From assembly GCA_021811185.1 (NCBI GenBank), contig JAJZPL010000022.1, forward strand, positions 1 through 51,870: a DNA stretch of 51,870 nt. Direction: 5' to 3'. This document shows positions 10,946 through 51,870 of the stretch, piece after piece. How positions within the stretch are numbered: the stretch's first letter is position 1; each line of letters opens with the position of its first letter. This DNA comes from a bacterium (GTDB lineage: Bacteria; Elusimicrobiota; Elusimicrobia; Elusimicrobiales; UBA9959). A model generated the notes under the pieces. That model had not been told where the DNA came from. It ran no database searches and saw nothing but the letters and a program-made list of their open reading frames with translations. The translations under genes were made by a program, and so were the position numbers.

Positions 10946-12384
10946 AGCGCCGCGCCCTCCCGCTTTTTTTAATGCTGCTGCTCCCGGCCGCGGCCGGGGC
11001 GGACGCGTACCGGACCGCGGCCGCGAAATTGGCCGGCGGCCTGCCCGCCGCTGGCAAAGTCTGCGTGCTGCCCTTCCTTTACATAGGCGCAGGGCCGGGC
11101 TCCAGGGGCGGGGCGGTAGTTTCGGAAAGGCTCAGCACGGAGCTGATCAAGCAAGGCCGCCTGAAGGTGCTGGAGCGCGCCCTGATAGCGAAGGTGCTTG
11201 GCGAATTGAAGCTGAAAAGCGGCGCTACGCCGGACGAGGCCCAGGCCAAGAAGGCGGCGCGCCTGCTGGGGGCGGATTACGCGGTGACAGGCAGCCTGTT
11301 CAAGAAGACCGGCGGCGCCCTCGAGTTCAACGCCCGCGCCATCGAGGTGGTTACGGGCGAGGTGAAGGCGGCCGTTAAGGCCGATATCGGCGAGGACTGG
11401 GTGGAAAAGTTCCCGGAAACGGCGGGGGAGGGGGCCGGCGGCGAGGCGTTCGCGCTGTGCCGGTCCGGCATACAGGCGCTGGACGACAGGGAGTTCGCGA
11501 AAGCGGCGGACTGGTTCACGAAGGCCATCGCCGCGGATGAGAACGGGGCCTGCGGGGTCAATATCCCGGGCCTGGCTTACCTGGGCCGCGCCAAGGCGTA
11601 TAAGCAGAAAAGCGGGCCGCTGGACGCCGCGGACGAAGAATTCCTGGGCGCGCCGGCCGGCTACACGATGAAAGACCAGGGAAGTATCGACGGCGAGGCC
11701 GCGGAGAACGCCAGGCAACTGGCCAGGTACAGCGCGCTGATCAAAGCCATGCCCGATAACGCCGCGGCTTATTTCGAGCGCGGGGTGATCCTGGCCAATA
11801 CGAAACGCTACCGCGAAGCCAGGAAAGACCTCGACGCCGCTATCAGGCTGGAGCCCCGGGAGCCGAAGTATTACGAGGCGCGCGGTTACGCCCTGGCCGC
11901 GCTCGGCCTGGCCGATAACGCCCTGCTGGATTTCGACGCCGCGGTAAAGCTCGACCCCGGCTATGCGAGCGTGTATAACGCCCGCGGCAATATTTACGGA
12001 GGTACCGGCCAATGCGGCAAGGCCCTGCCGAACTTCGCCAGGGCCATCGCGCTGTCCCCCGGCGAGGCTTTGTATTATTTGAACCGCGCCCGCTGTTTTC
12101 TCATACTGAAGAAGTACGAGGCCGCGCTCAAGGATTGCGACAAGGCCCTGGCGCTGGATCCCGGTTTTGTCGAGGCTTATTACCGGCGGGGCTACGTCCT
12201 GATCGGGCTGGGACAGTACGACAAGGCTATAAAGTCTTTCGACAAAGCGCTCGAGCTCAAGCCGGGCAACGAGCAGCTGCTCGCCGCCCGCACCGAGGCC
12301 GCGGACAGGAAGAGCGGCAAGTTCGCGAAGTACGACAGCGACGAGAAGAAAGGCCGCGGCTTGCTCAACGCCGGCGGCAACTAG
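10942..12384 (+). CDS. Secreted CsgG/FlgO-like domain plus TPR protein (second of a tandem pair)
   Basis: 480 residues, a diverged copy of the preceding gene: signal peptide (LFLMLLLPAAAGADA), then VCVLPFLYIGAG, SERLSTELIKQGRLKVLERA and ADYAVTGSLFKK, followed by GEDWVEKFPE, which is nearly the same in the partner. TPR units start after residue 260; an insert near 210-250 interrupts the repeat array. The last 25 residues are charged. The four-base overlap means the pair is made together. Probable periplasmic scaffold or assembly factor, partner unknown. Confidence 0.82.
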   Translation: MKRRALPLFLMLLLPAAAGADAYRTAAAKLAGGLPAAGKVCVLPFLYIGAGPGSRGGAVVSERLSTELIKQGRLKVLERALIAKVLGELKLKSGATPDEAQAKKAARLLGADYAVTGSLFKKTGGALEFNARAIEVVTGEVKAAVKADIGEDWVEKFPETAGEGAGGEAFALCRSGIQALDDREFAKAADWFTKAIAADENGACGVNIPGLAYLGRAKAYKQKSGPLDAADEEFLGAPAGYTMKDQGSIDGEAAENARQLARYSALIKAMPDNAAAYFERGVILANTKRYREARKDLDAAIRLEPREPKYYEARGYALAALGLADNALLDFDAAVKLDPGYASVYNARGNIYGGTGQCGKALPNFARAIALSPGEALYYLNRARCFLILKKYEAALKDCDKALALDPGFVEAYYRRGYVLIGLGQYDKAIKSFDKALELKPGNEQLLAARTEAADRKSGKFAKYDSDEKKGRGLLNAGGN

Positions 12385-33265: not shown

Positions 33266-34012
33266 ATGCCCAACGATCTCGAGACCGCCCGCGAACTCAT
33301 AAGGAAAGCCGAGAAGATTCTGGTCTTCACCGGCGCCGGAATTTCCACCGGCAGCGGCATCCCCGATTACCGCGGCCCCGGCGGGGAGTGGCTGAAGCGC
33401 GAGCCGGTGCTCTACCAGGAATTCATCGCTTCCACTAAGTCTAAGCTGGATTATTGGCGCTACAAGGCCGATACCTTCCCGGCTTTCTCCGCCGCCGTGC
33501 CCAACGCCGCCCACCTGGCGCTGGTGGCGCTGGAGAGAGCCGGCAGGCTGAGGGCGCTGGTCACGCAGAACATAGACAACCTTCACCGCGCCGCCGGTAC
33601 CCACACCGATAAACTGGTGGAGCTTCACGGGTCCGGGCTTTATGCCGAATGCCTGGACTGTTTTGAATGGGTGTCGATGGCGGAAGCCCTGGCGGCGTTC
33701 AAGAAGGACGGAGCCCCGCCCCAGTGCGTCTGCGGGGGCTGGCTGAAACCCGCGGTGGTCATGTTCGGCGAGCCGCTGGAGCGCGAGGACCTGATCAAAG
33801 CTTTCAGGGCGGCCGAAGAGTGCGACCTGGCCCTCTCCGTGGGCTCCTCTCTTTCGGTGGAGCCGGCCGCCTCGGTGCCGCTGGCGGCCAAGGCGGCGGG
33901 GAAACTCTACATCGTAGTCAACCGCGGGCCCACGGCCCACGACGGCGCGGCCGATATCAAGCTGGACGGCGACGCCTGCGAGATCCTGCCTTTATTGCTG
34001 CGCGGGTTCTGA
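33266..34012 (+). CDS. Sir2-family NAD-dependent protein deacylase
   Basis: 248 residues. The start ATG at 33266 fits the domain edge, though no ribosome site precedes it, so it may depend on translation of the SRAP gene. NAD motifs: FTGAGISTGSGIPDYRGP, VTQNIDNLH; catalytic His in ELHGSG; zinc cysteines in AECLDC and QCVCGG; SVGSSLSVEPAAS. The GIPDYRGP rather than GIPTFR form is seen in a subset of sirtuins. It removes acyl groups from lysines with NAD consumption. Its end overlaps the convergent SGNH gene by 21 bases. Confidence 0.93.
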   Translation: MPNDLETARELIRKAEKILVFTGAGISTGSGIPDYRGPGGEWLKREPVLYQEFIASTKSKLDYWRYKADTFPAFSAAVPNAAHLALVALERAGRLRALVTQNIDNLHRAAGTHTDKLVELHGSGLYAECLDCFEWVSMAEALAAFKKDGAPPQCVCGGWLKPAVVMFGEPLEREDLIKAFRAAEECDLALSVGSSLSVEPAASVPLAAKAAGKLYIVVNRGPTAHDGAADIKLDGDACEILPLLLRGF

Positions 34013-35872
34013 ACGCTCCGCGCGGCCGGGGGCGGTCCCCACCTGCGCGGCTCCCCGCAGCGCGTCGGCGGCCAGGCCCCGCGACCTGGCGTCGCTGCAG
34101 CGCGTCAGTGCGGCCCTGGCGGCCCTGGCGCATAGATTTACGGCGGCCGCGGAGTCTCCCTGCCGCCTCTTTAGGGAGCAGAGGCTTATCAGCGCCTCGG
34201 CGTTGTTCTTATCGGCCCGGAGCGCCGCGCGCAGCAGTTTTTCCGCGCCGGGGCTGTCGCCGGCCCGCAGCCGGGCTACGCCGGAGTCGCAGAGTTCTTT
34301 AGTGCCGCTGTCCCGCGCGTAAAAAGTGGAGACGTAACAGTAGTTCCCGGCGTCGAGCCCCAGCGCCGCGGCGAGGGCCGCCGCCGCCGGGCCGTATTCT
34401 TTATCCCCCGAAAAACCGGAGAGCACGGCGCCGGCTTCTTTCCCGCGCCCCAGGCGGAAAAGTATCCTTGCCTTTAGCAGCCGGGCCGGGGCGTTCCCGG
34501 GCAGGGAGGCAAGCGCCTTATCCGCCAGTTCCACGGCGCGTCCCGGGCTGCCGGCGCGCAGGTAAGCCAGGGCGGCATGGGCCTGGAACTCCGCGAACGC
34601 GGCTTCGGGGATCTCCTCCGGGCCCGGGTTCCAGAAGTCGCGGAGCGCCAGTTTCCGCAGGGCCTGTCTGGAGGAAACGGCTTCCGCCAGCGCGCGCCCG
34701 TCCTCCCGCGCCAGAGCCTCAAGTTCCGCCGCGGCCCTCTCGTTAAGCGTTTTTCCGTCCAGCCAGGAGAGGGCGTAGGAGATCCGTTTGGCCGCGGCCT
34801 TTTCCGGCGGGGGCGCGGTGTTGAAGCCCCCGTAAGCGGCGGCGGCTTTTATTCCGCAGCCGGCCGCCGCCGAGAAAAGGGCGTCCCAGGCGAGCTTGTT
34901 ATAGGAAGGCTGCCAGTGTATCCCGTCGTCGAACATGCCGAAGCCCGTAATGCCTCCCGGCGAGGCGTTCCTGAACGCTCCGTCCAGGTCCGCGAAGCAG
35001 GCGCCCCCGGCCGAAGCCGCGCGCCTGAGCATGGCGTTGCGGGCCGGGCCGGCGCGTTCGTAGGCCGGGGACAGGTCTTCGGCCGCGGCCAACAGCGGCG
35101 CCGCCCCGGCCTTATCTCCGGCGGCATAAAGCGAACGTCCGGCGAAATACACGGCCGCCGGGTCCCGCGGCAGCTCGCGGAAGGCGGCGGCGGCTTCGGC
35201 GTAGGCGCCTTTTTCGAACGAGACCAGTCCGTAAGCGTAGTCGGGGTCCGAAAGCGGCGCCAGGCTCTGCGGCGGCATCAGCAAATTGCCCGGGAGCGAG
35301 CAGACCACCAGCGGCACGCGCGCTTTAGCCGCGGCGGCGGCCATGCTCTTTACGCGCAGTTCCTGGGCTTTTATGAGCGCGTCGGTCAGCGCCGAACCGG
35401 AACCGGTGAAGGAATAATAGCGTTCCAGCAGTTTTAGTTCCCTGCGCCGCAGTTCAGGCTCGAGCCCGGGGCAGGGGTCGGCCCCGCTCTCGTTGTTCCC
35501 GCTCAGCAGCACGACCATGTCCGGCTGGTAATTCAGGATCTCTTTGAAGACTTCCCCGATGCGGTAGCTTTCATAGCCGCCCATTCCGCAGTTTATGATC
35601 TCGAGGCCCGGTCGCGACGGTCCGGCGGCTAGGATCATGGCGGCCGACTCCCCGGCTACGAAGACCCGGGTAACGCCGGCTGGTTTGGGCATACGGAAAG
35701 CCGCGGCGGAGGACCCTGGACGTGCAGGGGTTACCAGGCCGTCCCGCGACCGTTGGAAAAAAGGCTTTTTTATGTCCTCGCAGAAATAGGCCGAAGGCTT
35801 GTCGGCGGCGAATGCCGGGACGGCGGCCACGGCCAGGAAGAGGGCGGTCAAGGTCCTGAAGTCGTTTCTCAT
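33992..35872 (-). CDS. Secreted SGNH/GDSL hydrolase with TPR segments
   Basis: 626 residues from the ATG at 35872, chosen for the signal peptide (LTALFLAVAAVPAFAA); an upstream in-frame start adds 37 residues without sense. The SGNH blocks are present: Ser in VAGESAAM (about 75), Gly in NCGMGGYESY, Asn in LLSGNNES, and Asp/His in DDGIHW (about 310). A TPR-like segment lies between blocks III and V, and the last 250 residues are more TPR-like helices. SGNH enzymes of this kind remove or transfer acyl groups, often on polysaccharides. Divergent from the LTA-synthase-like gene at the edge of the glycan locus. Confidence 0.82.
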   Translation of the reverse strand: MRNDFRTLTALFLAVAAVPAFAADKPSAYFCEDIKKPFFQRSRDGLVTPARPGSSAAAFRMPKPAGVTRVFVAGESAAMILAAGPSRPGLEIINCGMGGYESYRIGEVFKEILNYQPDMVVLLSGNNESGADPCPGLEPELRRRELKLLERYYSFTGSGSALTDALIKAQELRVKSMAAAAAKARVPLVVCSLPGNLLMPPQSLAPLSDPDYAYGLVSFEKGAYAEAAAAFRELPRDPAAVYFAGRSLYAAGDKAGAAPLLAAAEDLSPAYERAGPARNAMLRRAASAGGACFADLDGAFRNASPGGITGFGMFDDGIHWQPSYNKLAWDALFSAAAGCGIKAAAAYGGFNTAPPPEKAAAKRISYALSWLDGKTLNERAAAELEALAREDGRALAEAVSSRQALRKLALRDFWNPGPEEIPEAAFAEFQAHAALAYLRAGSPGRAVELADKALASLPGNAPARLLKARILFRLGRGKEAGAVLSGFSGDKEYGPAAAALAAALGLDAGNYCYVSTFYARDSGTKELCDSGVARLRAGDSPGAEKLLRAALRADKNNAEALISLCSLKRRQGDSAAAVNLCARAARAALTRCSDARSRGLAADALRGAAQVGTAPGRAERSEPAQQ

Positions 35873-35975
35873 TTGCTCGCGCTGCGGGAACGGATTAATT
35901 CTATCAAATTGTCCCAGCCCGGCTGTGAAAGACCCGCAGGGCCGGCAGGACCGTCTATTTAGTAAAATATATGCG

Positions 35976-37883
35976 ATGATCAAAGACCGGCGCGGGCTTT
36001 TCCTGGATTTCTTCCTGCTCTTCCTCGGCTTCTCGCTGCTGACCAGGCTGACGCTGCTGGTTATGGCCTGGCCGGACCTGGACGGCGGGCCCTGGACGCT
36101 GATAAAGATCTTCTCCTCTGGCCTGGTTTACGACGCGGCCGCCTTCTCCTACGCCGGCGCGGCGCTGGCTCTGTACCTGCTGGCCGCGCCTGAAAAACTC
36201 TACGCCCACCGCTGGCACCGCCCGGCCGTGTACGTCCTCTTCTTCATAGCCGCCTTCCTGCTGGCCTTCAACCTGGCCGCCGAATATTACTTTTTCTTCG
36301 AGTTCGGGGTGCGCTACAACTTCATCGCCGTGGATTACCTCGTTTATACCAACGAGGTGGTGGGGAATATCCGCGAATCCTACAACCTGCCGGTGGTGCT
36401 GCCGCTGGTGGCCGCCCTGGCGGCCGGGACGCTGTGGCTTTTCAGGCGCCGGCTGGCCGCCCGCTTCGCCGAGCCGCTCTCCTTCCGCCGCCGCCTGGCC
36501 TGGGCGCTGCCCGCGCTGGCGCTCCCCGTCCTCTGCTTCTTCTTTCTCGACGGGCGCTTCGCGCAGGTCTCCAAGAACGAATTCGCCAACGAAGTGGCCA
36601 TGAACGGCCTTTATGCCTTCGGCTCGGCTTTTATCAATAACGAACTGCCCTACGACAAGTTCTACGCCACCAACGACCTGGCGGCTTCTTTCAAGACCCT
36701 GCGCGCCGACCTGGCGCAGCCGGGCGTTAAATTCAGGGACGACGGCCTGGATATAGCCCGCAGCGTGAAAGCCCGCGGGCCGCTGAAAAAGCTTAACGTG
36801 GTAGTGATAGCGGGCGAAAGCCTGAGCGCCGAGTACCTGGAGGCGTTCGGCGCGGTCAAAGGCGCCGGGACCCTTCCCAACCTGGACGCCCTGGCCGGCA
36901 AGTCGCTCTTCTTCAAGCGGTATTACGCCGCCGGCACGCGCACCGTGAGGGGGCTGGAGGCTATGACCCTCTCCATCCCGCCGCTGCCCGGCACCTCTAT
37001 CATAAAGCGCCCGGACAACGCCGGCTTCTTCTCCTGGGGCTCCGTGATGAAGGACCTCGGCTACGTCAACAAGTTCATCTACGGCGGGTACGGCTACTTC
37101 GACAACATGAACGCTTTTTATTCCGGCAACGGTTTCGGCATCGTGGACCGGGCCAATTTCTCCGGCGACGAGGTGAGCTTCGCCAACGTCTGGGGCGTCT
37201 GCGACGGGGACCTCCTTTCGAAGACGCTGAAAGAGGCCGACGCGGACGCGGCTTCAGGCAAGCCGTTCTTCTACATGGTAATGACCACCTCCAACCACCG
37301 GCCTTTCACCTATCCCGACGGGAAGATAGACATCCCTTCCTCTTCTATGAGCCGGACGGGCGCCCTGAAGTACGCCGACTACGCCATAGGCGAGTTCCTG
37401 GCCGCGGCGTCGAAGAAGCCCTGGTTCAAAGACACCATTTTCGTGCTGACCGCGGACCACTGCGCCAATTCCGCCGGCAAGACCGAGATCCCGGTGCAGA
37501 ACTACCACATCCCGCTGCTTATCTATTCGCCCGCGCACGTTAAGTCCGCCGTAGTGGAGACGCTCTCGGCGCAGGCCGACCTGGCCCCTACGGTGCTCGG
37601 CCTGATGAACGTTCCGTATGAAAGCCGTTTCTTCGGCAGGGATATGCTGGACGGCAAACCCGAAGGCCGGGCCTTCCTCTCTACTTTCCAGAAAGTGGGG
37701 CTCCTGAAAGACGGCCGCCTGGCCGTGCTGGGGCCCAAGAAATATATGAAGACCTACAAGTGGGACGAACCGGGCAGGACCATAACCGAGGTTCCCGACG
37801 ACAAGGCTCTGGAGGACGAAGCCGTCTCCTTCTACCAGGGCGCCAATTACGTTTACAAGAACCGTCTTGACAGGCTGAAGTGA
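35976..37883 (+). CDS. LTA-synthase-like membrane sulfatase/phosphoglycerol transferase (1)
   Basis: 635 residues from the ATG at 35976. Five membrane helices fill residues 1-215 (for example PAVYVLFFIAAFLLAFNLAA); the rest is an extracytoplasmic alkaline-phosphatase-superfamily domain. The nucleophile is probably Thr in YAAGTRTVRGLEAM, with metal-site residues in VIAGESLSAEY and VLTADHCANSAG. The family includes LtaS and OpgB, which move phosphoglycerol or phosphoethanolamine onto glycans. A YaiO-like barrel gene follows by 22 bases. A second member of the family lies at 40443-42848, so two modifications or a relay are possible. Confidence 0.88.
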   Translation: MIKDRRGLFLDFFLLFLGFSLLTRLTLLVMAWPDLDGGPWTLIKIFSSGLVYDAAAFSYAGAALALYLLAAPEKLYAHRWHRPAVYVLFFIAAFLLAFNLAAEYYFFFEFGVRYNFIAVDYLVYTNEVVGNIRESYNLPVVLPLVAALAAGTLWLFRRRLAARFAEPLSFRRRLAWALPALALPVLCFFFLDGRFAQVSKNEFANEVAMNGLYAFGSAFINNELPYDKFYATNDLAASFKTLRADLAQPGVKFRDDGLDIARSVKARGPLKKLNVVVIAGESLSAEYLEAFGAVKGAGTLPNLDALAGKSLFFKRYYAAGTRTVRGLEAMTLSIPPLPGTSIIKRPDNAGFFSWGSVMKDLGYVNKFIYGGYGYFDNMNAFYSGNGFGIVDRANFSGDEVSFANVWGVCDGDLLSKTLKEADADAASGKPFFYMVMTTSNHRPFTYPDGKIDIPSSSMSRTGALKYADYAIGEFLAAASKKPWFKDTIFVLTADHCANSAGKTEIPVQNYHIPLLIYSPAHVKSAVVETLSAQADLAPTVLGLMNVPYESRFFGRDMLDGKPEGRAFLSTFQKVGLLKDGRLAVLGPKKYMKTYKWDEPGRTITEVPDDKALEDEAVSFYQGANYVYKNRLDRLK

Positions 37884-37905
37884 GCGGCGGAAGATACCTT
37901 TAACT

Positions 37906-39489
37906 ATGTCAAAATCTTTTCCGGTCCTGTTCCTGTTCCTGGCCTGCGCTCCCGCTTTTGCCGCCGACACCGCGGTAAGCTCCGCCGCGGCGGCCGGGGC
38001 GCCGCCGGTTTCCTACGACTACGGCATGGGGCAGCGGGCCAAAGGCGATTACGCCGGCGCGAAAGCGACCTTTTTAAAGCTGCTCGAGAAGTCCCCGGAC
38101 AGCGGCGGCGCTCTGGAAGGGCTGTCCCTGGCCTGCATGTCCCTGGGCCAGTACGGCGAGGCTCTTCGCTACCTGGAGCGGTGGAACGCGCTCTCCCCGC
38201 GCAGCACCTATGTGCTGGGGCTGCTCGCCCGCGCGCAGAACAGGCTCAGGGACGACGAGGGGGCCCTGAATACCTACAGGGAGCTCGCGGCCTGCGACCC
38301 GCGCGACTGCGCGGTGAGGGACCGCCTGGATTCCGCCATGGAGCAGCTCCGGCCGGGAGTTTTTCCTTACGGCAGGACCTATAAGTCCTATTCCATGGAG
38401 GGCCTGGATACGCCGAACCCGCAGCGTATCCTTTACTCGGGCGCTACGGCCGGCAGTAATTTCCGGGCTTCGCTCAGGCCGGGGCTCGACCTTATCGGCG
38501 GCGCGGAGATCAGGGAAGAAGCCCAGAAGAACGACGGCAGGGGGTTCACTTATTACGACATCCGCGAGCAGGTTTACTCCGCCGGGCTGAACGGCCGGCC
38601 CAGCCGGGACCTCAGTTGGGAGGCCGAATACGGCCAGTCGGTGCTTTCCGACGTGCAGGGTTCGGCTGTGGGGAACACGCTTTTTAGCCGCGCGCGGCTG
38701 GCCGGCGAGCTGCACGCTTACGATACCGACTTCAAGCTTACGCTGACCCGCGCCCCCAAGTTCCTCCGCGGTTCCGGCGGCGCTAAGTTCTTTACGCTGC
38801 TCGCCGAGAACTCGGCGCGCGCCGAGGCGGGTTCCTCCCGGTGGGGCTGGGATTGGCTGGCCAGGGGCGGGGCGGACCATACTTCCGACGGGACCACGCT
38901 GGGGACCTATTCGCTCAGGGGCATAAAGGAAGCCGGCGCCAATATCTTCCAGGCCGGCTATTACCACGGCCAGCAGGAGTTTTACGGCGGCTCCGCTGAC
39001 GGTAAACTGCTTTACGTGAATACCGACAGGCTCGGCGCGGGCCTGCGGCACATTGTCGAGGATAAGTACCGCGCCGCCGTCTCCTACGACCAGACTTTTT
39101 TTTCCGACGCCAACCGGCTCGGCGAGCTGGGCGCGGAACTGACCGGGTGGTTCCCGTGGCAGAAGGAGTTCTACGCCACCTACCGTTATGCCCTGGAGGA
39201 TTTCGGCTCCGTGCGCTCCGGCTACAGTTCCATCGATACCCGGGCCCACTGGCTGGGCGCTTACTGGCGGCGCTGCCACGGCAAGAATTGGTCGGCCACG
39301 GCCGGTTACGAGCACGGCTTCCTGCGCGACATGAGCCGCGGCGGTTACGAGGGGAATAATTATATCGCCGAATTGGAGTGGTACCGCGCGGACAACGGCT
39401 CCGTCCGCGTGCAGGGCAGGCGAAGGAACACCACGGTGAGCGACCGTTCCTACTCGCTAGGGCTGCAGGCCCGCTACAGTTTCCGTTGA
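37906..39489 (+). CDS. TPR plus outer-membrane beta-barrel protein (YaiO/PgaA-like)
   Basis: 527 residues with signal peptide (VLFLFLACAPAFAAD). Residues 30-150 hold three TPR units (YDYGMGQRAKGDYAGAKATF, SLACMSLGQYGEALRYLERW). From about 165 on the sequence is alternating, aromatic-rich strands ending in SYSLGLQARYSFR, typical of a YaiO-type outer-membrane barrel. TPR followed by barrel is also the plan of the PNAG porin PgaA, though this barrel is shorter. It is the best candidate for export of the polymer made by the facing operon. Its 3' end overlaps the convergent glycosidase-like gene by 33 bases. Confidence 0.82.
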   Translation: MSKSFPVLFLFLACAPAFAADTAVSSAAAAGAPPVSYDYGMGQRAKGDYAGAKATFLKLLEKSPDSGGALEGLSLACMSLGQYGEALRYLERWNALSPRSTYVLGLLARAQNRLRDDEGALNTYRELAACDPRDCAVRDRLDSAMEQLRPGVFPYGRTYKSYSMEGLDTPNPQRILYSGATAGSNFRASLRPGLDLIGGAEIREEAQKNDGRGFTYYDIREQVYSAGLNGRPSRDLSWEAEYGQSVLSDVQGSAVGNTLFSRARLAGELHAYDTDFKLTLTRAPKFLRGSGGAKFFTLLAENSARAEAGSSRWGWDWLARGGADHTSDGTTLGTYSLRGIKEAGANIFQAGYYHGQQEFYGGSADGKLLYVNTDRLGAGLRHIVEDKYRAAVSYDQTFFSDANRLGELGAELTGWFPWQKEFYATYRYALEDFGSVRSGYSSIDTRAHWLGAYWRRCHGKNWSATAGYEHGFLRDMSRGGYEGNNYIAELEWYRADNGSVRVQGRRRNTTVSDRSYSLGLQARYSFR

Positions 39490-40446
39490 GGTCGAGGCCG
39501 CTCCCGGCGGCCCCGTTTTTTCGGCGGGAGCGCTTTCCAGCCATTTCCTGTAGCTCCTGAAGTGGTGGATGGCGAACCCGGCGAAAGCCGGTTCCCCGGC
39601 GAAGGCTTTCTCCGCCAGCCCCAGCTCCCGCTCCAGGTCCGTTTCCGTAAGGTGGTTGAAAGAAACTTTTTTCGGCTCGCCGGCGGAAGTGTCCACGCCT
39701 ATCACCACTTTGCGCCCGCGGCGCGCCCCGTAGCGCAGCTCCTCGGCGGCCAGCGAAGTCATGCTGTCGCGGCCCAGGGCGTGGTCGCGGTAATCCATCA
39801 GCGCCACGTAATCGTAGAGGTCCTGCACGTGCTCGTTGACCGGCTTTTTCCTGCCGTTCCAGGCCAGGGTTATGCCGTTAAGCCAGAACGGGATGGCCGG
39901 CCCTACCGCCAGTTCCGCCCCCGAGCGCCGCTTCAGCCGCATCAGCTTCCTGCCCATGTCGAGGTAGTCGAGCAGCAGCTTGTCCCGCTGCGTGGCCCAC
40001 TGGTCCAGGATATGCGGTTCGATATCCAGGTTCGCTCCGTCGAAGCGCTCTTCCGGCGCCGAAGCGGCGTTATACTTCAGCACGCGCCCGAGCATGGCCA
40101 GGGCGCGCTTCTGTTTGGGCGGCAGGACGTATTCCTCGGTGTGCAGGTAGGCGGAGCCGAGCAGGGCGTAGGCGCGCAGCCCGCTGCCGTGCAGGCGGCG
40201 GAGGAGGGCCCGGTACAGGTCCGGCCGGCTCTCTATCAGGTTCCTGCCGCCGAAAGCGTCCGCGTACAGGTAGACGATGTTTATTTTTTTGGATCTCAGG
40301 AAAGTTATGGCCTCTTCCGCCGCGGCCGTATCTTCCACGATCGCGTAGGAATCTTTCTCCCACGTCCAGACCGCGCGGTCCGCCTGCGCGGCCCGCGCCG
40401 GGGCGGCCGCCAGCAGCAGCGCGGAAACGAGCGCGTGGATCATCAT
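39457..40446 (-). CDS. Secreted TIM-barrel glycosidase-like protein
   Basis: 329 residues with signal peptide (HALVSALLLAAAPARAAQ). The remainder has barrel-like strand order: INIVYLYADAFGG, GLRAYALLGSAYLH, FDGANLDIEPH (an acidic DxxxxDxE-like strand end as in GH18 and related glycosidases), AELAVGPAIPFWLN, YDYVALMDYRDHA, KVVIGVDTSAGEP and FAIHHFRSYRKWL. The strand-end acids suggest a hydrolase acting on a glycan, comparable in place to the hydrolase domain of PgaB, but the exact family is not recognised. ATGA overlap with the upstream LTA-synthase-like gene. Confidence 0.68.
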   Translation of the reverse strand: MMIHALVSALLLAAAPARAAQADRAVWTWEKDSYAIVEDTAAAEEAITFLRSKKINIVYLYADAFGGRNLIESRPDLYRALLRRLHGSGLRAYALLGSAYLHTEEYVLPPKQKRALAMLGRVLKYNAASAPEERFDGANLDIEPHILDQWATQRDKLLLDYLDMGRKLMRLKRRSGAELAVGPAIPFWLNGITLAWNGRKKPVNEHVQDLYDYVALMDYRDHALGRDSMTSLAAEELRYGARRGRKVVIGVDTSAGEPKKVSFNHLTETDLERELGLAEKAFAGEPAFAGFAIHHFRSYRKWLESAPAEKTGPPGAASTSTETVAGLQP

Positions 40447-42848
40447 TGTAAACGTACCGGCACGCGGTAGCGACCGGCCCCTATGCTTTTGCCTGTGTCA
40501 GGGTGGGAGGGGATCACGGCCAGGAAGTACCGGCCGCCCTGGATCCCCGCGGACTTTACGTCCAGCTTCAGGGAGACCGTTTCGCCTGGCGCCAGCCGCT
40601 GCGCCGGGCCGTAGGTTTCCGTAAGTTCCGCGGCCCCGTCGGTCATCAGCACCACCAGCGGGACGAACAGTTCCGACCGCTCCGGGCCGGAGTTGGAGAA
40701 TTTTACTTCTATAGCAAGGCTGCCCGCCTTAGAACTTTCGGGGGCGCTGACTTCGCTTACCGCCACGCCCCGCGGCGCGTCCTCGTCCTCTTGTACTGAC
40801 GGCCTGAGCCTGGCCTCTTCGCGGTAAGGGGCCAGTTCTTTCTCCGTCCCTTCCGGCATCAGCGCCAGCGTGCGCGCCACCTCTTCGTTGGCCGCCAGGA
40901 AGGCGCCGAACTTTTCCTTCATCCGTTCCCTGGCGCCGCCGTCCCGCGTTTCCGTTATGCCCATGGCGTCGTTGAGTTTGTAGAGCGCGTCCTGGTTAAG
41001 GTACCAGGTCCCTGCGAGGAAGTCCACGAAGTTGGTCTTGGTCTGCTTCATGGGGATGACGTGCGTGTTGCGGAAGGAGGGCTCCAGGTCGAGCCCGGTG
41101 CCCAGCCAGGTTACGGCCTTGGGCGTGCGGATCCCGTAGTTGTGGGAAAGGAAAGCCAGCAGCGAAGGCGTCACGTCGAACTGCGAGGACACGGATTTGA
41201 TGCGGGCCGTGGTCTTAAGCAGCGGCGAGTAGATCAGCAGCGGGACATGGTAGCGGTCTATGCGCGTGACCATCGGGATCTCGGGCAGGCGGTGGTCGCC
41301 GGTGATCACGAAGATGGTGTTCCGGTAAGCAGGGTCCTTCCCGAGCCCTTCCAGGAAGCGCCCCAGCTGCTCGTCCGTATAAAGGATGGAAGTGTAGATG
41401 CTGCGGTAGGCGCGGTAGCCGGCCTTCTTCGCCTCCGGGATGCCCAGCTGGTCCAGGCGGCGCTCGAAGACCGCGTCGTAGGCGGCCTGCCCGAGGAAGG
41501 TGTACGGCGTATGCATGGTGGCGGTCTTCAGCAGGGTGATGAAAGGTTCTTTGTCGTCCTTCGCCTCCCCGGCCAGAACCCGGGAGAACAGTTCCCTGTC
41601 GGCGTAGCCCCAGCTGTTGCTCTTCTGGTACCCCGGGCCGAAGTTAAGTTCGTCCACCAGGCTGTCCACGCCGTTGCGGGCGTAGAAGATCCGGTCATTG
41701 TCGAAGTCGGAATTAAACCCGCTGTAAACCTTCAGCCGGTAGCCGCTATTCTTAAGCACGCTGAGCAGGGAGATGTGGCGCGGCATGCGCTCGCCCAGTT
41801 CGGCCAGGCCGTTGTCCCCGAAGGGCAGCGAAGCCAGCAGCGACGGCAGCACGCCGAAAGTGCGGCCCTGCGTAGCCAGGAAGTTCTCCCAGTAAAGGCC
41901 GCCGGCCGCCAGCCGGTCCAGGTTCGGGGTGAAGCTCCCCAGCGCCGCCCCCGGGCCGGAGAAAGAACGCCCCAGGCCTTCTACGATTATGAAAACGATG
42001 TTCGGCGGCCTGGCCGGGTTTATCTCGAAATAAGGCCCGAGCGCGTCGGGAGTCTGCTCGGCGCGCAGAAAAGGGTACTTAGGGTCCAGGTACTTCAGGC
42101 CCTGCCCCGAAGACAAGGCGGCGCGCGAGGAAGTTCCGCCTTTCAGCCATGAGGGCAAAAGGTAGGCGGCCGTATCGTTCAGCAGGAAAGAGGTTTTGTC
42201 GAGGGCGAGGTTATACGAATATTCGCCGGCCGAACCGGCCCGGCTGAATTGACCGGGCGCCGCCGCCAGCATAACCAGCCCCGCCGCCAGCGCCGCCGCG
42301 GCGGCCTTGAAGGAAAGCCAGGGGCGCTCCTTCCTTATTTGTCTTGCCAGTAATGTCCAGAGGGCGCCCAGGGCCAGGGCCAGGCCGAATACCGGCGCCG
42401 AGGGTAAGCCTCCGCCGCCCCTTATCGTGGCAAGGATCTCGGCCGGGCTATAACCTAAAAGGTCCGAGCCCAGCGGCACCCCGGCTTTAAAGAAATATAT
42501 AACCAGCGCCGCCTGCAGCAGGACCAGCAGGGACCAGGCCGCCCCCAGTCCCCAAAAGGAGCGCCGGGAACGGTTCAGGAGGAAAGGCAGAGAATAAAGG
42601 AAGAGGACCGGGAGGTACCGGGCCAGGCTGAGCAGATCGGAACCCAGGGCCTGGGCCGTTATCAGGGCGAGCTCGCCGGGTTTTGTCCCCGCCTGTGTCC
42701 CGGCGGCCAGCTCGGCGGCGCGCAGGCACAGGGAGGCCAGCGCCAGGGCCGGCAGCAGGTCGAAGAACCTGGCGGCGGCCGCGCCGGCCCTGGAATTCTC
42801 CAGGCGTTTAAAAAAAGGCGGGTTGGGTCCGGTGGTCATAGTTTTCAA
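40443..42848 (-). CDS. LTA-synthase-like membrane sulfatase/phosphoglycerol transferase (2)
   Basis: 801 residues. The N-terminal 245 residues contain about five membrane helices; the extracytoplasmic sulfatase-type domain spans about 280-600 with NIVFIIVEGLGRSFSG, probable nucleophile Thr in ATQGRTFGVLPS and metal residues in FVITGDHRLPEIP. The C-terminal 110 residues form an added beta-sandwich-like domain (AIEVKFSNSGPERSELFVP, LAPGETVSLKLDV), probably glycan-binding. It sits between the glycosyltransferase and the glycosidase-like gene with four-base overlaps on both sides, so it is made in step with them. Confidence 0.87.
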   Translation of the reverse strand: MKTMTTGPNPPFFKRLENSRAGAAAARFFDLLPALALASLCLRAAELAAGTQAGTKPGELALITAQALGSDLLSLARYLPVLFLYSLPFLLNRSRRSFWGLGAAWSLLVLLQAALVIYFFKAGVPLGSDLLGYSPAEILATIRGGGGLPSAPVFGLALALGALWTLLARQIRKERPWLSFKAAAAALAAGLVMLAAAPGQFSRAGSAGEYSYNLALDKTSFLLNDTAAYLLPSWLKGGTSSRAALSSGQGLKYLDPKYPFLRAEQTPDALGPYFEINPARPPNIVFIIVEGLGRSFSGPGAALGSFTPNLDRLAAGGLYWENFLATQGRTFGVLPSLLASLPFGDNGLAELGERMPRHISLLSVLKNSGYRLKVYSGFNSDFDNDRIFYARNGVDSLVDELNFGPGYQKSNSWGYADRELFSRVLAGEAKDDKEPFITLLKTATMHTPYTFLGQAAYDAVFERRLDQLGIPEAKKAGYRAYRSIYTSILYTDEQLGRFLEGLGKDPAYRNTIFVITGDHRLPEIPMVTRIDRYHVPLLIYSPLLKTTARIKSVSSQFDVTPSLLAFLSHNYGIRTPKAVTWLGTGLDLEPSFRNTHVIPMKQTKTNFVDFLAGTWYLNQDALYKLNDAMGITETRDGGARERMKEKFGAFLAANEEVARTLALMPEGTEKELAPYREEARLRPSVQEDEDAPRGVAVSEVSAPESSKAGSLAIEVKFSNSGPERSELFVPLVVLMTDGAAELTETYGPAQRLAPGETVSLKLDVKSAGIQGGRYFLAVIPSHPDTGKSIGAGRYRVPVRLQ

Positions 42849-44239
42849 TGCGACTGCCTTTTCTGCGTTCCCCAGCCGGTCTCCCTGAAAGAGAAACTGG
42901 CCCGCACCCTTTCCAGCAGCGTTATCTGCCGGTAGCCCAGGAACTCCACTACGGAAATAAAGCAGAGGCGGAGGATGTCCCGGTTCTTCTTATAGCGCCG
43001 GAAATTGTAGGTATCGAGGAAGATGGTGGCTATGTTTATGGAGATCCCCCAAAGGACGGCCACGGTGACGAACAGCAGCACGAACCTGATATTGAGCAGC
43101 CCGGCCAGGTACAGGATGGGGATCGAGAGGTAGCCGAGCAGTTCTATTACAGGCCCGAGGGCTTCCACTAATAAAAAGTAGGAGATCCCGAACAGGCTCA
43201 CGGCGCCGTATTTCGGGTTCAGGATCATGGCCCGGTTGTTTATCAGGCAGTCGATCAGGCCGCGGTGCCAGCGGTTGCGCTGCCTGCGCAGCATCTTCAG
43301 GGTAAAAGGCACCTGCGTCCAGCAGACCGGGTCCGGCACGAAAAATATTTTATAGGGGATCCTGTGGTCCAGGCAGTGCATGTGCAGGCGCATCACCAGG
43401 TCCATATCCTCGCCCACGGTCTTGCGGTAGCCCTTTATGGCCAGCACCATGTCCTTCCTGAACACCCCGAAGGCGCCGGAAATTATCAGCAGGCTTTTGA
43501 GGAAATTCCAGCCCGTGCGCCCCGACAGGAAAGCGCGCGTGTATTCCAGCACCTGGATGGTCTCCAGCGCGCTCTTCGGCAGTTCTATGTCTATCACCGC
43601 TCCGTCCTTCACGCGGCAGCCGTTCATCACGCGCACTATGCCGCCGGTGGCGATCAGTTCGTCGTCCTCTATGAAAAGTTTGGAGGCTTTCAGGACGGCG
43701 TCGGGTTCCAGCATGGAGTCGGCGTCTATCGAGCAGAACAGCGGGTACGAAGAGATGTTTATCCCGGCGTTGATGGCGTCGGCCTTGCCGCCGTTCTCCT
43801 TGTCGACCACCAGGAGGTTCGGGTAGTCCGCGGAAACGTAGATGTCCTTGATCGCCGCGTGAGGGACCTGCAGGCGCACCGGTTTGGTGTAGGCGCCCAG
43901 TTTGAAATCCTCTTTCAGCCTGGCCATGGTCCCGTCGCCGGAGCCGTCGTTTATCACTACGATCTCGAACTCGGGGTAATGCAGGTTCAAGAGCGACCGT
44001 ACGCTGCTGGAGATGACCGCCTCCTCGTTGTAGGCGGGCACTATCACGGAAACGGGCTTGTAGTAAGCGTCCGCGGTCAGCAGGCGCCGCGCGCCGCTCG
44101 AAGTGGAAAGATAAGAGTGCCGGATTATGTCCTTTAGCGCGAAAAGGATCAGCAGGGTATAGGTGGAATTTATCGCGAGGAAATACAGGAGGATGACCCC
44201 CTGCAGGTAGTAAGCGGCGGTGATAAGGGCGGGGGTCAT
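42845..44239 (-). CDS. Processive family 2 glycosyltransferase (BcsA/PgaC/HasA type)
   Basis: 464 residues. One N-terminal helix (about 8-32), a cytoplasmic GT2 domain and several C-terminal helices (about 345-420). GT-A motifs are complete: VSVIVPAYNEEAV, VINDGSGDGT, the DxD-like SIDADSML, GEDMDLVMR (general base Asp), and the processivity motif RRQRNRWHRG (QxxRW). Such enzymes polymerise and translocate glycans such as cellulose, hyaluronan or poly-GlcNAc. A C-terminal PilZ domain is absent, so c-di-GMP would not act directly on it. Overlaps of four bases with the HEAT gene and the transferase gene. Confidence 0.93.
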   Translation of the reverse strand: MTPALITAAYYLQGVILLYFLAINSTYTLLILFALKDIIRHSYLSTSSGARRLLTADAYYKPVSVIVPAYNEEAVISSSVRSLLNLHYPEFEIVVINDGSGDGTMARLKEDFKLGAYTKPVRLQVPHAAIKDIYVSADYPNLLVVDKENGGKADAINAGINISSYPLFCSIDADSMLEPDAVLKASKLFIEDDELIATGGIVRVMNGCRVKDGAVIDIELPKSALETIQVLEYTRAFLSGRTGWNFLKSLLIISGAFGVFRKDMVLAIKGYRKTVGEDMDLVMRLHMHCLDHRIPYKIFFVPDPVCWTQVPFTLKMLRRQRNRWHRGLIDCLINNRAMILNPKYGAVSLFGISYFLLVEALGPVIELLGYLSIPILYLAGLLNIRFVLLFVTVAVLWGISINIATIFLDTYNFRRYKKNRDILRLCFISVVEFLGYRQITLLERVRASFSFRETGWGTQKRQSH

Positions 44240-45333
44240 GCGGCGGCCTCCGCGCTGCTTAGCGCGTACCGCGCGGCGTCGGCGGCGAATTTGTCCGGGG
44301 AGGCGGTCTCGCTCCGCAGGATGTCCCGCCCTTCCCCGCCGAACCTGGCCAGGGCCAGCGCGGCGTTGATCCGCAGGTGGTAGTTCGCGTCGTGCAGCGA
44401 GTCTTTAAGCGCCGGGAGCACCTCGGGGCCGCACAGGTGCGCGGCTTTCAGGGCCGTAAGGCGGACCCGCCAGTCCTTATGGCGAAGGGCCGCCGGCAGG
44501 ACGGCAAGGTCGCCCATGCCGACCAGGGATTTTATGCAGGCGATCATTACTTCAGGCTCATCCTGGAACGTCCAGTAATATTCCATCACTATCAGGTCCA
44601 TCTGTTCGCAGCCGGCCGCGTGGCAGGCCGACAGGCAGTCGCGCTTCACCATGGCGAGGATCTCCGGGTCGGTCATGATGCGCTTCAGGAAAAATTTGAA
44701 TTCGGCCTCCCTGCCGGCGCCCTTCAGGGCGGTGATCGCGTTGAAGAAAACGTCCTCGGTATATTTCGCCGTCAGGTAAGGCAGGCCGGAGAGCAGCTTG
44801 CAGAGGGAATAGATGTACTCCTGGTCGCGGGCCAGCAGGCTCAGCCCGTAAATTATGCGGTACTTCACGTCGTTGGAGGTCTCCGCTTTGAAAAGGTCCG
44901 AAAAAAAATCCCTGTTCTTCGTGAGTTTCAGCGAGGAAAGGATGTCTACCGCGTGCGCCCGCTTGTACCAGGCCGGGTTCTTGCACAGGCGCTGGTAGTA
45001 GCGGTCGATCTTAAGTTTGTAGATAAGCTGGATGGCGCGCTCCGCTACCTCGCCCTGGAAACTCCCGATTATGCTGGCGACCGCTTCGCTGTAGGCCTCG
45101 TGATCCGTGGAATCCCGCGGCGCGGGAAGCAATTCCGACGGGTCGGTGACGGTTATTACGGCGGTGGTGATCCGGTGCTTGAGCAGTTCTTTTTTCGCCT
45201 CGGCCTTCTCCACGCGGCGCTTGTGGAGCAGCAGGAAGAGCACTTCGAAAACGTTGAAGGCCGCCAGCAGGCAGATCGCGATGTAGAGGAAGGTGTAAAA
45301 ATGGGGGGAGGAGGTAAGGCGCGTCAGGAACAT
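44236..45333 (-). CDS. Membrane-anchored HEAT-repeat protein
   Basis: 365 residues: one N-terminal membrane helix (about 13-38, FYTFLYIAICLLAAFNVFEV), a basic stretch, and a helical remainder with HEAT repeats, clearest near the C-terminus (ALRHKDWRVRLTALKAAHLC, LHDANYHLRINAALALARFG). HEAT arrays are binding surfaces; here the cytoplasmic array would hold or regulate the glycosyltransferase, whose gene overlaps by four bases. It follows the lone receiver gene, so a receiver-HEAT-transferase control chain is plausible. Confidence 0.82.
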   Translation of the reverse strand: MFLTRLTSSPHFYTFLYIAICLLAAFNVFEVLFLLLHKRRVEKAEAKKELLKHRITTAVITVTDPSELLPAPRDSTDHEAYSEAVASIIGSFQGEVAERAIQLIYKLKIDRYYQRLCKNPAWYKRAHAVDILSSLKLTKNRDFFSDLFKAETSNDVKYRIIYGLSLLARDQEYIYSLCKLLSGLPYLTAKYTEDVFFNAITALKGAGREAEFKFFLKRIMTDPEILAMVKRDCLSACHAAGCEQMDLIVMEYYWTFQDEPEVMIACIKSLVGMGDLAVLPAALRHKDWRVRLTALKAAHLCGPEVLPALKDSLHDANYHLRINAALALARFGGEGRDILRSETASPDKFAADAARYALSSAEAAA

Positions 45334-45382
45334 AATGCCGGCCGCCGGGAACTTCCGGGCTCAGCTTTGCCCGTGCAATCCC

Positions 45383-45760
45383 TTAGCAAGAGCCCCTTTT
45401 GTTGAGGAATCTGTCTATTTTTAATTTCAGGTGCTCGATGTTGGCGGGTTTGGTGATGTAATCCTCTATGCCCAGGTCATAGCCTTTCTTTATGTTGATC
45501 TCCTGCTTAAGGGAGGTCATCATAAAGATCGGGATACCCTTGGTTTCGGGATCTTCCCTGAGCCGCTTGGCCACTTCAAAGCCGGACAGCTTCGGCATAT
45601 TTATGTCAAGCAGGATCAGGTCCGGCTTGAAGACAGGGACTTTCTCCAGCCCCGCCGTACCATCGGAGGCCGTTTCGATGGTGTGGCCGGCTTTGGTCAG
45701 GTAGACCCGGCAGATCAGCGTAATGGATTCGTCGTCGTCTACCACGAGTATTTTAGCCAT
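45383..45760 (-). CDS. Stand-alone receiver (CheY-like) protein
   Basis: 125 residues, only a receiver: VVDDDES acidic cluster, phospho-Asp in LILLDINMPKLSG, Thr in MMTSLKQE, and Lys in YITKPANIEH. No output domain, so it must act by binding a partner; the membrane HEAT protein encoded 49 bases downstream is the obvious candidate. No histidine kinase is adjacent. A large hairpin ends ten bases before its start codon and no clear ribosome site is seen. Confidence 0.93.
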   Translation of the reverse strand: MAKILVVDDDESITLICRVYLTKAGHTIETASDGTAGLEKVPVFKPDLILLDINMPKLSGFEVAKRLREDPETKGIPIFMMTSLKQEINIKKGYDLGIEDYITKPANIEHLKLKIDRFLNKRGSC

Positions 45761-45770
45761 AACCGGTTCT

Positions 45771-45811
45771 CTGGCAGCCCGGTCCCGTCCGCACGGGGGC
45801 CCGGCTGCCAG
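45771..45811. promoter_or_regulatory. Large hairpin between the cyclophilin gene and the receiver/glycan operon
   Basis: CTGGCAGCC and GGCTGCCAG form the outer stem of a 41-base inverted repeat, with GC-rich inner pairing. No T run follows on either strand. On the minus strand it ends ten bases before the receiver ATG, so it could act as an attenuator or hinder ribosome access as well as end the cyclophilin transcript. Confidence 0.6.
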
Positions 45812-45827: not shown

Positions 45828-46538
45828 TTAATTCAGCAGTTCCGCGCTCTTGATGTAGTCCATCTTGGGGAACTCGGCTTTCAGGTACTTGTTGCCCTGC
45901 AGCTGCACCAGGCCCTGGTCGGGGCCCATGCCGCTGGGGGCGCCTTCGCCGTAGCCGTTGTAGATGCTCTCTACCACGCCCATGCCTTCCACTACCTTGC
46001 CGAACGGGGAGAAGCCCATGCCGTCGAGGTTCCTGTTGTTGCCGTAGTTGATGAAGAACTGCGTGGTGCGGGTATTGGGGCCGGCCATCGCGTAGGAGAT
46101 GTACCCTTTGGCGTTGGACTGCGTTACGGGGTCGTCCTTGATGCGGGCGCCGCGCCAGGCCCCGGCGATCTCCGGGTTGCCGTGGATGCCGAACTGCACC
46201 ATGAAGCCTTCGATCACGCGGAAGAAAGCCACGTCGGTGAAGAACCCGGCCTTGACCAGGTTGTAGAAGCGGTCCGCGCCGAGCGGGGACCAGGCGCGGG
46301 TGACTTCCAGCGTGAAGTCGCCCTTCGTGGTCTCGAACTTCACCTTGAAGTTCTCGGGGGCTTTTTCAACGGCTTTCGCGGGGTTCTTGAGTATTTCCAT
46401 ATCTGTTTTTATCTCCTTGTTCGTCTGTGTCTGCGCCGCGGCCGGCCGCGGGTCCGGGCCGTTCTCCTGGGCTTTAGGGGCGCAGGCCGCCGCAAAGACC
46501 GCCGCTAAAGCGGCGATCGCTAAATTACGAGCTTTCAT
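45828..46538 (-). CDS. Cyclophilin-type peptidyl-prolyl isomerase, lipoprotein
   Basis: 236 residues. A lipoprotein signal with lipobox (AAVFAAACAPK) is followed by a Gln/Thr/Pro linker and one cyclophilin domain (about 60-236): FTLEVTRAWSPLGADRFYNL, DVAFFRVIEGFMVQFGIHGN, TRTTQFFINYGNN, GFSPFGKVVEGM. It speeds prolyl isomerisation of proteins outside the cytoplasm, tethered to a membrane. GGAGGTCC precedes the ATG. A gap of about 100 bases, AT-rich with TATAAT on both strands (46585-46592), separates it from the divergent OsmC gene. Confidence 0.93.
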   Translation of the reverse strand: MKARNLAIAALAAVFAAACAPKAQENGPDPRPAAAQTQTNKEIKTDMEILKNPAKAVEKAPENFKVKFETTKGDFTLEVTRAWSPLGADRFYNLVKAGFFTDVAFFRVIEGFMVQFGIHGNPEIAGAWRGARIKDDPVTQSNAKGYISYAMAGPNTRTTQFFINYGNNRNLDGMGFSPFGKVVEGMGVVESIYNGYGEGAPSGMGPDQGLVQLQGNKYLKAEFPKMDYIKSAELLN

Positions 46539-51869: not shown

Positions 51870-51870
51870 G

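Follow-up and report, generated by a model that had tools for sequence, protein, structure and literature searches.

A conserved receiver-HEAT-GT2 cassette in an Elusimicrobiota genus and the wide occurrence of its HEAT-GT2 pair

Genes of the locus

The stretch of DNA analysed here (hereafter designated the window) belongs to an Elusimicrobiota genome of 3.09 Mb in 79 contigs (93.6% complete and 5.2% contaminated), in which it covers contig 1 from base 1 to base 51870, and carries genes for a stand-alone receiver (REC), a HEAT-repeat protein, a GT2 glycosyltransferase and a protein composed of a tetratricopeptide repeat (TPR) domain and a beta-rich domain (hereafter TPR-barrel), accompanied by a lipoteichoic acid (LTA)-synthase-like transferase (LTA2) and a glycosidase-like TIM barrel. 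We found that these genes constitute a real and conserved cassette with boundaries narrower than those drawn in the initial annotation of this DNA, and that the HEAT-GT2 pair is much wider than that annotation had described, the two genes being adjacent in numerous phyla of bacteria and also in some archaea. Functionally, the locus is probably a system for synthase-dependent exopolysaccharide synthesis and export.

All eight genes previously annotated were confirmed at their positions in the window (Table 1). The receiver, HEAT, GT2, LTA2 and glycosidase genes form a run on the minus strand, which is faced by the genes of the TPR-barrel and of a further LTA-synthase-like protein (LTA1), and an SGNH-hydrolase-like gene is divergent from LTA1. 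The lone receiver indeed precedes the other four, 49 bases upstream of HEAT. Four genes had been regarded as joined by 4-base overlaps; the junction bases at HEAT/GT2 and LTA2/glycosidase are such overlaps (ATGA), and the one at GT2/LTA2 requires a TTG start, the next ATG lying nine bases further in and giving no overlap. Overlaps of this kind are ordinary in bacteria; the above-chance feature of the locus is its conservation in relatives, and not the 4-base overlaps alone. A strong inverted repeat (45770-45811), which may be a terminator or a leader, is located between the stop of the peptidyl-prolyl isomerase (PPIase) gene and the receiver start.

Table 1 Genes of the cassette and its neighbours in the window
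Gene	Product and assigned role	Position	Strand	Match or basis
REC	Stand-alone receiver (125 aa) that opens the operon-like run; probably an input switch	45383..45760	-	PF00072, E 9e-28
HEAT	Membrane-anchored HEAT protein, 365 aa; probable cytoplasmic partner or regulator of the synthase	44236..45333	-	Pfam HEAT_2, E 7e-14
GT2	Membrane polysaccharide synthase, predicted processive type, 464 aa	42845..44239	-	Pfam GT2 models
LTA2	LTA-synthase-like alkaline-phosphatase-superfamily transferase, 801 aa, with extra C-terminal region; accessory	40443..42848	-	PF00884, E 5e-33
GH	Glycosidase-like TIM barrel, probably secreted, 329 aa; accessory	39457..40446	-	Fold model
TPR-barrel	TPR domain and beta-rich C-terminal domain, 527 aa; putative outer-membrane exporter	37906..39489	+	TPR Pfam matches
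LTA1	LTA-synthase-like gene resident at the site; flanks the cassette as part of the backbone, non-member	35976..37883	+	PF00884, E 1e-40
SGNH	SGNH-hydrolase-like and TPR protein; neighbour, non-member	33992..35875	-	PF13472, 27.2 bits (cut-off 32.9), and TPR matches
PPIase	Cyclophilin-type PPIase; flank on the receiver side	45828..46538	-	Pro_isomerase model match in two relatives

Conservation and insertion site of the cassette

Six locus proteins were used to search 41 genomes, that is, the window's own genome, 24 others of the same genus and 16 of the same order. In the same-genus set (n=25, several genomes being incomplete at 66-100%), GT2 and HEAT were present in the identical 12 genomes (12/12 vs 0/13; Fisher p 1.9e-7, these tests on presence and absence ignoring kinship), and the TPR-barrel in all 12 and in one other genome, G021 (12/12 vs 1/13, p 2.7e-6). 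The glycosidase followed GT2 less completely (8/12 vs 0/13, one listed with an internal stop; p 4.6e-4), and the receiver was found in 12/12 GT2-positive loci. The 16 genomes of the same order yielded no close GT2. Moreover, when the 11 other GT2-positive loci of the genus were fetched and their genes labelled by similarity, all retained PPIase-REC-HEAT-GT2 together with the TPR-barrel, and the minimal form REC-HEAT-GT2-TPR-barrel was seen in G007 and G010 (L125 and L128). The conservation of the neighbourhood, on which the initial annotation had staked its proposal, is thus borne out by the joint presence of receiver, HEAT, GT2 and TPR-barrel in 12/12 loci.

The cassette is inserted between PPIase on one side and LTA1, or Sir2/SRAP where LTA1 is missing, on the other, and in three sister-genus loci (L139, L140 and L142) it lies between the same flanks. 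Among seven LTA1 regions fetched from same-genus genomes without GT2, LTA1 directly adjoins PPIase in five (L129, L130, L131, L132 and L136), so that the cassette lies between these two genes and neither LTA1 nor the SGNH gene belongs to it. LTA1, present in 16/25 genomes, showed no co-occurrence with GT2 (7/12 with GT2 and 9/13 without, p 0.69); these counts treat the 43% matches in G015 and G022 as paralogues, which are excluded. They include G011 and G023, in each of which the match is split in two pieces at contig ends. LTA1 was therefore rejected as a member, being present with or without GT2 and marking the empty site, and of the two LTA-synthase-like enzymes of the initial annotation only LTA2 remains, as an accessory, the other being resident. 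The SGNH hydrolase was likewise rejected, no relative being found at E 1e-6 in 15 related loci or in the 10 loci examined for the empty site. The same-genus loci and the empty sites accordingly give no support to a single unit reaching as far as LTA1 and SGNH.

The loci of relatives also revealed two genes that the initial annotation does not list, both being absent from the window: c2, a membrane protein with a phosphatase-type motif, and DgkA, of the diacylglycerol/undecaprenol-kinase type. Each occurs as a separate gene in 8 of the 12 GT2-positive same-genus loci. For the wider set of loci described below, c2 was searched with a profile of seven Elusimicrobiota sequences (weak matches in L012 and L025 were left uncounted). 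In G017, a single open frame of 839 codons (L127 7098-9617) spans both GT2 and c2, a natural fusion. DgkA also occurs where LTA2 is absent (L119, L120, L122 and L126), and none was found anywhere in the window's genome. An apparent LTA2 match in L032 proved to be LTA1.

The HEAT-GT2 pair across phyla

The pairing of HEAT and GT2 across many phyla goes beyond the initial annotation. Of the 79 loci retained in a scan of 84,980 species genomes, 65 have a same-strand HEAT gene directly upstream of GT2, its end lying at most 210 bp from the GT2 match; the 79 loci represent the best 80 of at least 464 matches, and the set leans to close relatives owing to this choice. The HEAT profile was built from 55 of the 79 loci and the window, and those 55 therefore match it by construction. 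As an independent check, Pfam HEAT_2 was found in 55/56 chosen upstream proteins; 24/79 loci were left out of it, comprising near-duplicates, 10 loci without an upstream frame of 200 codons, and some, for example L074, L078 and L079, whose upstream frame did not resemble HEAT. For the gene next upstream of HEAT (63 scanned), no HEAT family appeared among the 25 families listed, and HEAT is thus present in at most 2/63 of these genes.

Among the 65 HEAT-positive loci, 33 are from Bacillota, 8 from Pseudomonadota, 5 each from Elusimicrobiota and Actinomycetota and 4 from Bacteroidota; with seven further ones, the named phyla number 12 and cover both domains, two of the loci being archaeal. A GT2 tree was built with 78 rows, after removal of L068 (one stop in the matched stretch) and of the short L075 and L076. 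On it, the window and 62 loci, together the 63 HEAT-positive rows, fell on one side of a single branch (SH-aLRT 81), and the HEAT label required one change, as compared with a shuffled mean of 14; the row of E. coli YaiP was labelled HEAT-negative by the analyst. The window, with its HEAT gene directly upstream of GT2, belongs to the HEAT-paired GT2 group as defined in this analysis. Within Elusimicrobiota, GT2 was found in 42/294 genomes at E 1e-40, and HEAT adjoins it in 20/20 loci fetched, three of which are apparently already within the 79-locus set and one of which (L152) has a less clear HEAT match in a frame overlapping GT2. Plasmids also carry the pair: 165 records match GT2, and HEAT was detected by profile in 9/9 examined.

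Genes of signal transduction also occur beside the pair. Directly upstream of HEAT (63 scanned), Response_reg was found in 27/63, GGDEF in 12/63 and YaiO in 5/63 genes. With our own receiver profile, a receiver-containing gene stood immediately before HEAT in 30/65 loci, 11 of them being close to lone-receiver size, and a receiver lay within 10 kb in 44/65 HEAT-positive vs 1/14 HEAT-negative loci (p 3.5e-5), two groups that also differ in phyla. Neighbouring genes were partly taken by a simple longest-frame rule, which is noisy in GC-rich loci. In Bacillus sp. EB01, an Hpt-GGDEF-REC protein precedes HEAT and a hybrid kinase lies downstream of GT2. Plasmid orders, with HK and RR denoting histidine kinase and response regulator, are HK-RR-RR-YaiO-HEAT-GT2-Hpt in Mesorhizobium, RR-TPR-HEAT-GT2 in Erythrobacter, RR-HEAT-like-GT2-YaiO-LTA2 in Emticicia and RR-HEAT-GT2 in the haloarchaea Haloarcula and Salinirubellus; a response regulator also lies upstream in Halosolutus, and the Paenibacillus record is unannotated in the HEAT-GT2 stretch. 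In Deinococcus and Legionella adelaidensis, a TPR or YaiO gene precedes HEAT-GT2 and the stretch has no receiver.

Among the open-licence papers examined, none described a HEAT-GT2 unit; HEAT mentions in Xanthomonas papers concern an effector and in a lipocone paper beta-catenin. The nearest literature sighting of HEAT with a glycosyltransferase is Clostridium perfringens NELoc-2, where a membrane-bound HEAT protein and a glycosyltransferase are reported to accompany polyphosphate-polymerase, CotH and deacetylase genes in a locus known there only as disease-associated (PMC11677781). Its gene content as reported resembles that of a clostridial locus of our set (L063 3522-13672, from a Clostridia metagenome-assembled genome), which reads VTC-DUF4956-CotH-(weak GH72)-HEAT-GT2 with an EAL/GGDEF gene downstream.

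Possible product, control and competing explanations

GT2, with its Pfam matches, hydrophobic segments and invariant catalytic residues, has the features of the inner-membrane synthase of synthase-dependent secretion, and is predicted to be processive. Residues D98, D172/D174, E277-D278 and Q320-x-x-R323-W324 are invariant in 11 aligned sequences and correspond to the processive-GT2 motifs. The best NCBIfam model is PgaC_IcaA (127 bits, E 7.5e-37; cut-off 422 bits). The HEAT partner, annotated as a membrane protein, indeed has, besides its HEAT_2 match, a distinct hydrophobic stretch near the N-terminus (18-36); a second, weak peak (262-280) falls inside the repeat region. The basic residues after the membrane helix suggest that the HEAT domain is cytoplasmic.

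The glycosidase, which has conserved acidic residues, is modelled with confidence as a TIM barrel and is nearest to Cwp19; its best Foldseek matches include GH18 chitinases and, in fifth place, PgaB. Membership of GH18 was rejected, as there was no Pfam match (limit 0.1) and no NCBIfam match (limit 0.01); the GH18 active-site pattern is complete in only 2/17 sequences. The N-terminus of the glycosidase points to probable secretion; no segment exceeded the hydropathy threshold. LTA2 carries the PF00884 domain and is below the equivalog cut-offs of LtaS and OpgB (39 vs 970 and 37 vs 572 bits). Of the 11 sulfatase-family (PF00884) matches in the window's own genome (G000), 7 are confined to a stretch of about 11 kb on contig 69 (9363-20391).

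Compared with known systems, the locus resembles cellulose synthesis (Bcs) in that BcsC is the best Foldseek match of its TPR-barrel model (TM-score 0.26), which is a hint only, the model being of low confidence (pLDDT 58.7, 20 strands); GT2 differs from CelA (34 bits, cut-off 699) and has no PilZ among its Pfam matches. Cellulose can carry phosphoethanolamine, added by the alkaline-phosphatase-superfamily enzyme BcsG. The E. coli yaiO-yaiX-yaiP-yaiS genes likewise place an outer-membrane YaiO near a putative glucosyltransferase; YaiP is, however, only 25% identical to GT2 over 296 residues and forms a very long branch, YaiS is annotated as a putative deacetylase, and no HEAT or receiver is annotated in the stretch read. 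The locus matches the general plan of synthase-dependent systems (PMC9384988, PMC7112194), and shares with Pga/Ica a membrane GT2, a TPR protein with a putative barrel and a predicted periplasmic glycosidase-type barrel (PMC9384988); the Pga-like layout of porin, hydrolase and synthase proposed in the initial annotation is upheld as the best inference. One of these papers names five synthase-dependent polymers, and its main text contains neither 'HEAT' nor 'YaiO' (PMC7112194).

The cassette consists of REC-HEAT-GT2 and the TPR-barrel, with LTA2 and the glycosidase as accessories, inserted between the resident LTA1 and PPIase; its genes, their order and co-occurrence, the empty site and the wide HEAT-GT2 pairing are observations. 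From these, we infer the identity of the polymer, its export and its control as follows. GT2 would polymerise a sugar, perhaps an N-acetylhexosamine, and extrude the polymer through the inner membrane, while the cytoplasmic HEAT domain lying against it would relay the phosphorylation state of the receiver, in the role that PgaD and cyclic di-GMP have in Pga. The periplasmic TIM-barrel enzyme may cleave or trim the polymer, LTA2 may attach a phospho-substituent, probably glycerol phosphate, and the TPR-barrel would carry the product across the outer membrane. One pathway of exopolysaccharide synthesis, modification and export under HEAT/receiver control, as initially annotated, stands as the best reading for the cassette, without LTA1 and the SGNH gene. 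The evidence for an amino sugar is circumstantial, consisting of the PgaC_IcaA model, the glycosidase's Foldseek neighbours, and the glmS and sugar nucleotidyltransferase genes that follow GT2 in Halosolutus.

Several observations weigh against this assignment. LTA2 is found in only 5/12 GT2-positive same-genus loci and in G021 (weak co-occurrence, p 0.073). G021 is itself a counter-example to strict linkage, having an empty site on one contig, LTA2 and TPR-barrel (L135 8463-11920) on another near the contig end, and no GT2 found. The simple empty site is absent in 2/7 GT2-lacking genomes, PPIase and LTA1 being 7 kb apart in L133 and no PPIase being seen in the stretch of L134. In 16 Elusimicrobiota loci outside the window's family (L143-L158), neither glycosidase, LTA2 nor c2 was matched, and the TPR-barrel was matched in only 4; the pair is old and the accessory set is local or re-acquired. 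No receiver stands immediately upstream of HEAT in 35/65 HEAT-positive loci. The barrel had been called YaiO, a label that is not confirmed for the window: PF19413 matched neither the window protein (limit 0.1) nor its orthologues in L009, L010, L011 and L032 (limit 0.5), although it does match six barrels encoded near the pair in distant relatives, and the window barrel, with its poor fold model, falls short of both YaiO and PgaA models. In a VIA re-alignment of the glycosidase, Cwp19 was followed by mannosidases and glucosidases, and the 50 rows listed include neither a chitinase nor PgaB. Finally, glmS occurs in 1/3 annotated haloarchaeal loci (not in Haloarcula or Salinirubellus), and the Legionella adelaidensis locus carries, instead, genes for a nucleotide-sugar dehydrogenase and for epimerases; the sugar may therefore differ.

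Some of these points would also be accounted for by two adjoining modules, that is, a core of HEAT, GT2 and barrel under regulation and, independent of it, a set of genes for envelope modification (LTA2, glycosidase, c2 and DgkA). The core is constant while the accessory genes vary between same-genus loci and are missing around the more distant Elusimicrobiota pairs, and G021 holds LTA2 and the TPR-barrel with no GT2 found. Nevertheless, members of the LTA2 subfamily also occur near the pair outside Elusimicrobiota, in three phyla represented by Stenotrophomonas L018, Ignavibacteria L024 and Emticicia L168, glycoside hydrolase (GH)-family genes occur within 10 kb in 16/65 HEAT-positive and 0/14 HEAT-negative loci (counts without a significance test), and GT2 and c2 are fused in G017, so that we consider two independent modules unlikely.

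It is similarly improbable that GT2 makes a lipid-anchored glycan or glycolipid of the teichoic-acid kind, to which LTA2 adds glycerol phosphate while DgkA recycles the lipid and the TPR-barrel has another role. Such a product would suit the LTA-synthase-like enzyme adjoining GT2 in the window, the DgkA of 8/12 same-genus loci, and the occurrence of HEAT-GT2 in Bacillota and archaea, which are without a Gram-negative-type outer membrane. It fits poorly with the processive-type residues of GT2 and its nearness to PgaC_IcaA, with the companion of GT2 in 12/12 loci being the TPR-barrel and in only 5/12 LTA2, and with DgkA, which occurs without LTA2 and is absent from the window's genome.

That the locus is simply a divergent Pga locus for poly-N-acetylglucosamine (PNAG) is quite doubtful, since, despite PgaC_IcaA being the best model of GT2, a PgaA match in the TPR part (E 4e-8) and PgaB in the glycosidase's Foldseek list, GT2 and the TPR part are below the equivalog cut-offs (the latter 32 vs 367 bits for PgaA), the cassette has no deacetylase or PgaD match, and the HEAT-paired GT2 forms its own group (on a tree that contained no Pga sequence). 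The deacetylase had been noted as missing; this holds for the cassette, PF01522 having no match in the eight locus genes, but not for the genome, which has five polysaccharide-deacetylase matches on other contigs. In addition, the window has HEAT and a receiver where Pga has PgaD/cyclic di-GMP control, as described in PMC7112194.

Returning to a HEAT-paired exopolysaccharide synthase, we propose only tentatively that bacteria and archaea share a synthase clade switched directly by two-component signalling, in which a phosphorylated receiver would act on a membrane-anchored HEAT scaffold gating GT2, with no cyclic di-GMP step in the versions with a stand-alone receiver. If this is true, the HEAT-GT2 pair of 12 named phyla and both domains would be a polysaccharide synthase that has a partner protein of its own and is little described so far, suggesting a route by which a receiver without a DNA-binding part controls matrix production, and its variable neighbours (glycosidase, LTA2, c2 and VTC/CotH) would be candidate polymer modifiers.

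Elsewhere in the window, a type II/IV secretion ATPase (T2SSE with MshEN) bearing a C-terminal receiver domain is encoded at 2248-4413 (+), and at 9275-12384 (+) two successive genes with a 4-base overlap each combine numerous TPR repeats with an N-terminal part resembling CsgG.

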